Below are positions 318-42,488 of a DNA stretch of 42,488 bases, piece after piece. Within the stretch, counting starts at the first letter, position 1; each line of letters starts with the position of its first letter. The notes under the pieces are model-generated. The model saw nothing but the letters and a program-made list of their open reading frames with translations, had not been told where the DNA came from and ran no database searches. Source of the DNA: Candidatus Faecaligallichristensenella faecipullorum (GTDB lineage Bacteria; Bacillota; Clostridia; Christensenellales; Aristaeellaceae). The DNA is taken from assembly GCA_018716505.1 (NCBI GenBank), contig DVJW01000139.1:1-42488 (forward strand). The letters run 5' to 3'. Made by a program: the position numbers and the translations under genes.

Positions 318-395
318 TCAGCCCCCCGGGGTAAGCGAACATACGGGAACCTCCCCCTGGCCCCTCCATAAAAAAACCTCCCCGCCAGGGGATCA

Positions 396-418
396 GGGTG
401 TTGACTTTGTCAACACCC
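396..418 (-). repeat. Solo terminal hairpin of the ~223-bp stem-loop element family (copy E)
   Basis: GGGTGTTGACTTTGTCAACACCC is the same as the terminal palindrome of copies C and D, and lies 2 nt from a terminator hairpin. Confidence 0.6.
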
Positions 419-420
419 AG

Positions 421-18871: not shown

Positions 18872-18897
18872 AGGGTCCGGGCGCAATTCCCGGACCC
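18872..18897 (+). terminator. Terminator hairpin, copy 1 (left flank of element A)
   Basis: AGGGTCCGGGCGCAATTCCCGGACCC, preceded by an A-tract; identical to 19121-19146. Confidence 0.75.
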
Positions 18898-19120
18898 AGC
18901 GTGTCGAAAAAGTCGACACGCTGTCAGGAAAATGAATACTTCATTTTCCTGAGTTGCATCATTTTCTTGCTGCCTTCGGCAGCGGCCAGAAAATGATAAA
19001 GGAAGCGGCCACCTGGGCCGCTCCTCGCGGCGTACACGCCGCCGCTGCGGATTGAATATGAAGGGGCCCCAGCCCCTTCATGCATCCCCAAGGAAATAAT
19101 TAAGGTTTTTTGACAGCCTG
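18898..19120 (+). mobile_element. ~223-bp stem-loop-array element, copy A
   Basis: Shares ordered hairpins with copies B (26735), C (37943, minus) and D (42252); flanked by 26-bp perfect direct repeats. Confidence 0.8.
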
Positions 19121-24952: not shown

Positions 24953-25027
24953 TGGTACCTCCAAGGGGACTCGAACCCCTGTTTTCGCCGTGAGAGGGCG
25001 ACGTCTTGACCGCTTGACCATGGAGGC
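24953..25027 (-). tRNA. tRNA-Glu(CTC), CCA encoded
   Basis: GCCTCCATGGTCAAGCGGTCAAGACGTCGCCCTCTCACGGCGAAAACAGGGGTTCGAGTCCCCTTGGAGGTACCA; anticodon loop CCTCTCA. Confidence 0.93.
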
Positions 25028-25032
25028 TTATA

Positions 25033-25106
25033 TGGCAGCGGAACTAGGATTCGAACCTAGACAATACGAGTCAGAGTCGTAGGTGCTGCCGTTACACCAT
25101 TCCGCT
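25033..25106 (-). tRNA. tRNA-Gln(CTG), CCA encoded
   Basis: AGCGGAATGGTGTAACGGCAGCACCTACGACTCTGACTCGTATTGTCTAGGTTCGAATCCTAGTTCCGCTGCCA. Confidence 0.93.
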
Positions 25107-26722: not shown

Positions 26723-26734
26723 ACGACTAGATTC

Positions 26735-26957
26735 AGCGTGTCGAAAAAGTCGACACGCTGTCAGAAAAATGAATGTTTCATTTTCCTGAGTTGCATCATT
26801 TTCCTGTCACCTTCGGTGACGGCCGGAAAATGATAGAGGAAGCGGCCACCTGGGCCGCTCCTCGCGGCGTACATGCCGCCGCTGCGGATTGAATATGAAG
26901 GGGCCGCGGCCCCTTCATGCATCCCCAGAGTACCAAACTGGGTTTTTTGACAGTCCG
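26735..26957 (+). mobile_element. ~223-bp stem-loop-array element, copy B
   Basis: Same ordered hairpins and length as copy A; ends AGCGTGTCGAAAAAG...GGTTTTTTGACAGTCCG. Confidence 0.78.
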
Positions 26958-37689: not shown

Positions 37690-37721
37690 GAGCCCTTTCT
37701 CCGCCCATCGGAGGAAGGGCT
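37690..37721 (+). terminator. Terminator hairpin, copy 1 (left flank of element C)
   Basis: GAGCCCTTTCTCCGCCCATCGGAGGAAGGGCT, no T-tract here; identical to 37944-37975. Confidence 0.75.
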
Positions 37722-37943
37722 CAGACCATTGACAAACCTATTTTTCCCGTTTGGGGATGCATGAAGGGGCCGCAGCCCCTTCATATTCAATCCGCAGCGG
37801 CGGCATGTACGCCGCGAGGAGCGGCCCAGGTGGCCGTTTCCTTTATCATTTTCCGGCCGTCACCGGAGGTGACAGGAAAATGATGCAACTCGAAAAAATG
37901 AAAAATTCATTTTTTCGAAGGGTGTTGACTTTGTCAACACCCT
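37722..37943 (-). mobile_element. ~222-bp stem-loop-array element, copy C (inverted)
   Basis: Reverse complement shares all hairpins with A and B; flanked by 32-bp perfect direct repeats. Confidence 0.8.
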
Positions 37944-37975
37944 GAGCCCTTTCTCCGCCCATCGGAGGAAGGGCT
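37944..37975 (+). terminator. Terminator hairpin, copy 2 (right flank of element C)
   Basis: Identical 32 bp, here running into the T-tract (GGGCTTTTGA). Confidence 0.78.
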
Positions 37976-41481: not shown

Positions 41482-42252
41482 ATGACCAGCTTTCTGATTG
41501 GCGCGCAGCTCTTTTCCATGCGCGACCGCACCCAGACTCCGGAGGATCTTTTGGCAACGCTCAAGGCGCTCAAGGCCGTGGGGTATAACAGCGTCCAGCT
41601 TTCCGGTCAGGGCGCCATGCCCGACGAGCAGATTGCCGGGATGCTCAAGGAGACCGGCATGATCGCCCCGGCCACGCACATTTCCATGGACATGTTCGAA
41701 AATCACCTGGACGAGACGATTCGCCGTCATAAGCTGTGGGGCAGCGAATATCCCGGCCTGGGCGCCATGCCGGACAAATACCGCAGCGCCGAGGGATACA
41801 AGGCCTTTGCCAGGGAGATCAGCCTGATCGCCAAAAAGCTCAAGGACAATGGCCTTCAATTTATCTATCACAACCATGCCTTTGAGTTTGCCCAATACGA
41901 CGGGGTGACCGGGTATCAGATCCTGCTGGACAACGCCAGCGAGGATGTGCAGTTTGAAATGGATACCTATTGGGTTCAGGCCGGCGGCGGCGATCCGGTG
42001 GAATGGATTGAAAAGCTCAAGGGCCGGATGGACGTGGTGCATTTCAAGGATATGACCGGATGCAACGAAAACCGGCCGCTCATGGTTCCGGGCGGCACCG
42101 GCAACATGAATTGGAAGCGAATTTTTGAGGCCTGCGAGAAGATCGGGGTCAAATACGCCTTTATCGAGCAGGACAACGCGGTGGAAACCGATTCTCTGGC
42201 CTGCATGACGCAAGCCATCAAGAGCATGAGCGCGCTGGGCGGAAGGTTTTGA
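41482..42252 (+). CDS. Sugar phosphate isomerase/epimerase (xylose isomerase-like TIM barrel)
   Basis: GLQFIYHNHAFEF, VQFEMDTYWVQAGGGDPVEWIEKLKGRMDVVHFKDM, RBS AGGGAGGAG before ATG 41482. Confidence 0.93.
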   Translation: MTSFLIGAQLFSMRDRTQTPEDLLATLKALKAVGYNSVQLSGQGAMPDEQIAGMLKETGMIAPATHISMDMFENHLDETIRRHKLWGSEYPGLGAMPDKYRSAEGYKAFAREISLIAKKLKDNGLQFIYHNHAFEFAQYDGVTGYQILLDNASEDVQFEMDTYWVQAGGGDPVEWIEKLKGRMDVVHFKDMTGCNENRPLMVPGGTGNMNWKRIFEACEKIGVKYAFIEQDNAVETDSLACMTQAIKSMSALGGRF

Positions 42253-42488
42253 GTGTGTTGACAAAGTCAACACCCTTCGAAAAAATGAATTTTTCATTTT
42301 TTCGAGTTGCATCATTTTCCTGTCGCCTTTGGCGACGGCCGGTCGGAGGCCGCGTTTACGCGGCTGGAGGTTCGAGGACGGCCCAAAGGGCCCCGCAGAA
42401 CCGGAACCCCAACCCGGCGAAGCCGCGGTTGGGGCGAGAAGGAAAATGATAGAGGAAGCGGCCACTTGGGCCGCTCCGACGGCGCGGC
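42252..42488 (+). mobile_element. Stem-loop-array element, copy D, with a 100-bp internal insertion and cut by the window end
   Basis: Shares the hairpin series with copy C up to GACGGCC and resumes at GGAAAATGATAGAGGAAGCGGCCAC. Confidence 0.75.

Follow-up and report, generated by a model that had tools for sequence, protein, structure and literature searches.

The window, by which is meant the whole stretch of 42,488 nucleotides that was analyzed, contains near its right end a 223-bp noncoding element, hereafter element C, with one copy of a terminator-like hairpin abutting each of its ends. Element C belongs to a family of MITEs with other members in the window. Their positions, strands where applicable, and terminal inverted repeats (TIRs) are as follows.

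395..420, plus strand: solitary right-end hairpin of the MITE family; it adjoins an ordinary terminator hairpin (~421-454), and the remaining element is lost or degenerate
18872..18896: left hairpin copy at element A; 25 bp (26 with the shared base)
18897..19120, minus strand: element A, MITE type 2; 224 bp; opposite orientation; TIRs CAGCGTGTCGAAAAA / CAGGCTGTCAAAAAA
19121..19145: right hairpin copy at element A; followed by a T-rich tract
26734..26957, minus strand: element B, MITE type 2; 224 bp; site without a hairpin; degenerate short direct repeat CGACTAGAT / CGATTAGAT
37691..37721: proximal hairpin copy at element C; 31 bp (32 with the shared G at 37690); without a T-tract; perfect match to 37945-37975
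37722..37944, plus strand: element C, MITE type 1; 223 bp; left TIR CAGACCATTGACAAA, right TIR (reverse complement) CAGGGTGTTGACAAA; from the sequence and the genomic copies
37945..37975: distal hairpin copy at element C; followed by a TTT(T) tract
42250..42488, minus strand: truncated type 1 copy; extra inner hairpin module; its right end adjoins a stop codon, and the contig ends within it

Element B was absent from the earlier entry on element C; its degenerate repeat measures ~9-11 bp. Two neighboring tRNA genes lie on the minus strand at 24956-25106.

The first-pass annotation had described a 32-mer, GAGCCCTTTCTCCGCCCATCGGAGGAAGGGCT, repeated exactly at 37690-37721 and 37944-37975 and adjoining element C, and this was confirmed from the sequence. 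Comparison with other copies sets the element boundaries at CAG...CWG. The first G of the 32-mer also belongs to the terminal CTG of the element, which leaves 31 bp (37691-37721 and 37945-37975) as the true target duplication. The unit duplicated is the stem-loop AGCCCTTTCTCCG-CCCAT-CGGAGGAAGGGCT. Chance is excluded as the source of a perfect 31-bp repeat at both ends of a multicopy element. As had also been noted, a T-tract (GGGCTTTTG) follows only the distal hairpin copy, the hairpin differs in length from that at element A (31 bp, or 32 with the shared G, versus 25/26 bp), and elements A and C are inserted in opposite orientations relative to their upstream plus-strand genes. RNA from the C locus is predicted to fold far better than shuffled sequence (z -10.7), with the 5' arm of the first hairpin copy paired to the 3' arm of the second and the element in between. 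No empty site was found for element C.

The assembly of the window's own genome comprises 2.93 Mb in 236 contigs and is 84% complete. Within it, the anchor GGGGATGCATGAAGGGGC has 106 matches, with up to two mismatches allowed, and a right-end anchor has 85. The elements are short, multicopy, and noncoding, with TIRs and flanking direct repeats, and they meet the criteria for MITEs. The family is a hairpin-rich mosaic with imperfect 15-bp TIRs: type 1 ends in CAGACCATTGACAAA / CAGGGTGTTGACAAA and type 2 in CAGACTGTCAAAAAA / CAGCGTGTCGAAAAA, and hybrids of the two exist. Internally the elements consist of successive hairpins whose modules are interchangeable, and their lengths run from 223 to ~420 bp. 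Numerous copies stop at contig ends because the assembly broke at these repeats. When all CAGA-type TIRs in the genome were listed, most led into the MITE anchor; the solitary ones that were fetched belonged to no transposase element and were chance matches, degenerate MITE ends, or ends of other MITEs. Copies of the element were not found in plasmid and phage collections, nor did the exact core pattern have a match in the genome collection. Additional MITE types in the same genome (L154, L155, L160, L162, L164) combine similar ends with other interiors, and several of them carry hairpin repeats. Some MITEs adjoin, or lie inside, the terminal hairpin of another MITE copy (L063, L074, L083, L091, L096).

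It had been proposed that what is duplicated follows the local terminator, a rule that would be refuted if the majority of copies lacked hairpin duplications. This was not the case, and the rule holds throughout the genome and beyond it. The target hairpin is present on both sides in 25 of the 33 fully assembled two-ended copies, as a direct repeat in 23 and with one copy inverted in two (L007 and L092; the loop in L007 reads TCTTATGA versus TCATAAGA), and the hairpin repeats range from 19 to 39 bp. The inverted second hairpins are not explained by simple gap repair or by staggered-cut repair. Four of the 33 copies show 6-8 bp repeats (AAAACTT, TAAATT, TAGTAAA, AGGCCCCT) at sites without a duplicated hairpin, one (element B) has only the degenerate short repeat, and three have none. 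Eleven additional pairs of contig-end halves join through an identical hairpin; having been selected by hairpin match, they do not constitute independent support, but they are included in the set of 34 long direct repeats referred to below.

In all 34 long direct repeats, a single hairpin takes up 80% or more of the length (dG of -5 or lower); the same applies to 811 of 5000 (16%) length-matched random windows. With respect to the anticipated one-to-one relation between repeat and hairpin length, what stood was its symmetry: the repeat is centered on the hairpin dyad, no more than 1 bp off, in 33/34. Regressions against stem span were weak (r = 0.39 and 0.11) and are uninformative, the automatic measures of stem span being inflated by flanking A/T tracts. 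The relation is better put as dyad symmetry than as a regression on stem length. A hairpin adjoins the left end of the element in 54 of 69 cases and the right end in 55 of 73; the corresponding figures are 4.4% for random positions and 6.6% for positions located 20-100 nt past open reading frames. An unbiased scan of 638 kb of the genome yielded nine palindromic direct repeats 19 bp or longer; each of the nine flanks such an element, and none was found elsewhere in the sequence scanned. An A-tract lies outside the left copy at 25/34 sites and a T-tract outside the right copy at 26/34, which is the pattern expected for intrinsic terminators. Both tracts are present at 20 of the 34 target terminators, and thus the orientation of insertion is often undefined; the claim that insertion is independent of orientation is supported by elements A and C within that limit.

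Similar elements are found in other genomes. Those of Clostridiales bacterium SIG374 (G006) display the end CAGTCTGTCAAAAAA, unrelated interiors, and hairpin repeats of 21-35 bp, and those of RUG12722 (G012) and RGIG6474 likewise combine hairpin repeats and similar ends with unrelated interiors. The elements of a further genome, G024, also adjoin hairpins. The central hairpin module is common to many related Clostridia MAGs from the gut and rumen, Christensenella sp. UBA4379 and Candidatus Avichristensenella among them. It often occurs in repeats without hairpin duplication, and thus the rule goes with the element ends and not with the module. It belongs, that is, to the IS1182-family transposase, and it is not peculiar to the window's genome. 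In the form CTCCTCG-(hairpin)-CTGCGGAT, the module was seen in otherwise unrelated repeats of many related Clostridia MAGs (L250-L329).

A complete 1.5-kb insertion sequence with a 449-residue transposase is located on contig C139 of G024. Its layout is AAACTGCCCAAGGGCAGTAA / CAGCCTGTCAAAAAA, the transposase, and TTCTTTGACAGGCTG / AAACTGCCCAAGGGCAGTAA, the outermost sequences forming a 20-bp hairpin repeat. The TIRs are CAGCCTGTCAAAAAA / CAGCCTGTCAAAGAA, and CAGCCTGTCAAAAAA agrees with the type 2 MITE end, CAGACTGTCAAAAAA, at 14 of 15 positions. The transposase carries PF13751 and DUF772 and belongs to the IS1182 family according to NCBIfam NF033551 (409.9 bits, cut-off 270). No IS1182 transposase was found when the window's own genome, 84% complete and in 236 contigs, was searched with PF05598 and PF13751. 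The putative link between transposase and MITEs rests on TIR similarity and a common target rule, across different species of the same bacterial family; that an IS1182 transposase moves these particular MITEs is an inference. No relatives of the transposase were found among viral contigs. An IS1182-like transposase in G012 (L142) was rejected as the mover on account of its different ends.

Plasmids carry relatives of this transposase (36-57% identity) whose TIRs are close to CAGACTGTAGACAAA and which, in 13 cases, are flanked by hairpin repeats of 18-35 bp. The hosts belong to the Bacillota, Fusobacteriota, and Proteobacteria, and the repeat lengths are as follows: Cetobacterium 22, Sutcliffiella 30, Bacillus 19, Peribacillus 24, Acetoanaerobium 24, Cytobacillus 35, E. 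casseliflavus 19, S. simulans 27, Lactococcus 20, S. arlettae 21, E. raffinosus 22, Providencia 18, and Aminobacter 25 bp. Four copies (L351, L353, L355, L362) have a different hairpin on each side, best read, by inference, as recombination between copies. The flanks of ISEfa7 (L358) are unequal, for L361 the element ends could not be located, and the record of L346 starts within the element. Distant members of the IS1182 family, ISCfr1 among them (~26% identity), fall into a clade of their own with a support of 1.0, and no hairpin repeat was found at them.

Two of the plasmid insertions have empty counterparts. The occupied site on the Providencia IncC plasmid contains two copies of AGGCGGCCTAAGCCGCCT. 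Its flanks, when joined with a single hairpin, match 949 plasmid records, 879 of them at 99% identity or higher (IncC-type), and among the matches listed are examples identical over 258/258 bases. For the Aminobacter NyZ550 site, four empty relative plasmids (95.5-99.6% identity) contain a single hairpin. Since the plasmids free of the insertion sequence carry one hairpin, the insertion creates the duplication.

We consider element C to be an IS1182-family MITE inserted at terminator-like hairpins, with the target duplication being the hairpin itself as a result of strand transfer at its 5' foot, and place the probability of this reading at roughly 0.83. The hairpin duplication, its tie to the end sequences, the IS1182 element of a related genome with the same ends and duplication, and the empty sites for two plasmid IS1182 insertions are matters of observation. 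As to mechanism, the IS1182 DDE transposase would act on CAG-type TIRs and place the MITE into a terminator-like hairpin, with the two strand-transfer points, one per strand, placed in symmetry at the 5' feet of the hairpin. Given such symmetry, gap repair would copy the whole stem-loop and leave one hairpin on each side of the element. The probable cause, inferred and not demonstrated, is that the transposase attacks the base of an extruded cruciform; the attack points, although 19-39 bp apart in sequence, would then likely be near one another in space. Joining of the element 3' ends to the 5' foot of each cruciform arm would yield exactly the product observed. At targets lacking a hairpin an ordinary 6-8 bp stagger would apply; that this is the usual stagger of the enzyme is suggested by the repeats of that length found where no hairpin was duplicated. 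Insertion is probably nearly harmless, as inferred from the retention by each flanking transcript of a hairpin beside its own U-tract, by which termination would be preserved. With less assurance, but still on the favorable side, we extend this proposal to the IS1182 clade of the Bacillota, Fusobacteriota, and Proteobacteria together with its MITEs: these would read DNA secondary structure, joining at the 5' feet of an extruded cruciform, with no fixed duplication length and with both terminations kept.

The inverted second hairpins in L007 and L092, which staggered-cut repair does not predict, leave room for a different use of the same IS1182 transposase, namely copying of the hairpin through replication slippage, or through processing of a hairpin in a single-stranded target such as may exist on the lagging strand, with no cutting of a double-stranded cruciform. 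We regard this as unlikely, though it cannot be dismissed: nearly all of the duplications are direct and perfect, and both the TIRs and the short duplications (6-8 bp) seen where no hairpin exists are features typical of transposition by a DDE cut-and-join reaction. Those same 6-8 bp repeats at four copies, and the plasmid copies with different hairpins per side, could instead be taken to mean that a fixed short target is duplicated, the flanking hairpins reflecting selection for harmless terminators and later gene conversion or recombination. Such an explanation is highly improbable. At independent sites of different sequence, the repeat matches the stem-loop to the base; where an occupied plasmid site has two hairpins, its empty counterparts have one at precisely that position; and selection is unable to set both breakpoints at the feet of a stem.

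Nearly as improbable is movement of the MITEs, with hairpin duplication, by another transposase of the genome. The ISAs1 and IS30 families are each represented by several copies, and IS30 copies lie inside MITE ends. The ISAs1 element, however, has the end sequence CACGGAAATCAATTTTC, and none of its three copies lies at a duplicated hairpin, whereas the IS30 copies have their own ends and differing junctions inside the inner palindrome of the MITE end, as nested passengers would; none of the ISAs1 or IS30 copies seen so far has duplicated terminator hairpins. By their ends and junctions, both ISAs1 (L185-L189; contigs C49, C97, and C145; at least three copies) and IS30 (L161, L171, L179-L184) were ruled out, and the IS1182-family transposase remains the preferred mover. 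The IS30-family elements are situated at the center of the MITE inner palindrome (TCGAAAAAATGAAA / TTTCATTTTTTCGA) with differing junctions in L171, L179, L181, L183, and L184 (contigs C163, C177, C119, C18, and C71), where the MITE hairpin serves as the target of an insertion sequence.

Reference tables list direct repeats of 0-60 bp for IS1182 elements. Palindrome targeting by the family is already known: some members target palindromes according to Siguier et al., as cited in PMC5678879. The IS1182-family insertion sequences recognized by NF033551 (Bacillus, Enterococcus, Staphylococcus, Providencia, and Aminobacter plasmids) share with the window elements TIRs that start CAGNCTG, insertion at terminator hairpins, and direct repeats of hairpin length; the window elements differ in being noncoding MITEs of 223 to ~420 bp with ~100 copies and interchangeable hairpin modules. 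The staphylococcal members IS1272 and TnSha1 also target stem-loops and terminators without a primary sequence preference, but they delete or replace the hairpin with no target duplication (PMC4923244, PMC5678879), hairpin deletion having been reported for TnSha1 (PMC4923244). The window MITEs, in contrast, keep the hairpin on both sides and do not meet the replacement criterion. Membership in the IS1182 family alone is thus not predictive of the outcome. In Figure 13 of PMC5678879, IS1272 takes the replacing pathway a, and pathway b is drawn as hypothetical; it is this hypothetical pathway that the stem-loop duplication in the window matches. The occurrence of both duplication and replacement within IS1182 suggests a difference in the foot that is attacked.

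To our knowledge, no hairpin-length duplication has been described for the insertion sequences that target REP palindromes. These resemble the window elements in having structured palindromic targets but differ in that their REP targets are sequence-specific (PMC1525189). RUP, SPRITE, and QMITE are, like the window elements, short, multicopy, noncoding, and rich in stem-loops, with TIRs, but the passages of PMC10969869 that were consulted describe no duplication of a whole terminator for them. A statement that the duplication equals the stem-loop was not found in the literature searched, nor was an empty-site demonstration or a MITE family with this behavior; subscription papers were outside the search.

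The length of a target-site duplication is usually near constant and set by the geometry of the transposase. Here it is set by the fold of the target and not by the enzyme. The insertions thus provide a direct genomic assay of hairpins that are extruded or recognized in living cells, and a testable model of structure-guided integration. The hairpin left beside each U-tract would explain how ~100 insertions in 3' regions are tolerated, and a tool for safe-site insertion at terminators could be developed from the system. The hairpin repeats can also be used to join contigs broken inside such elements. Contig ends inside MITEs that can be paired through the duplicated hairpin include L017/L140, L016/L102, L020/L134, and L082/L118, among others.
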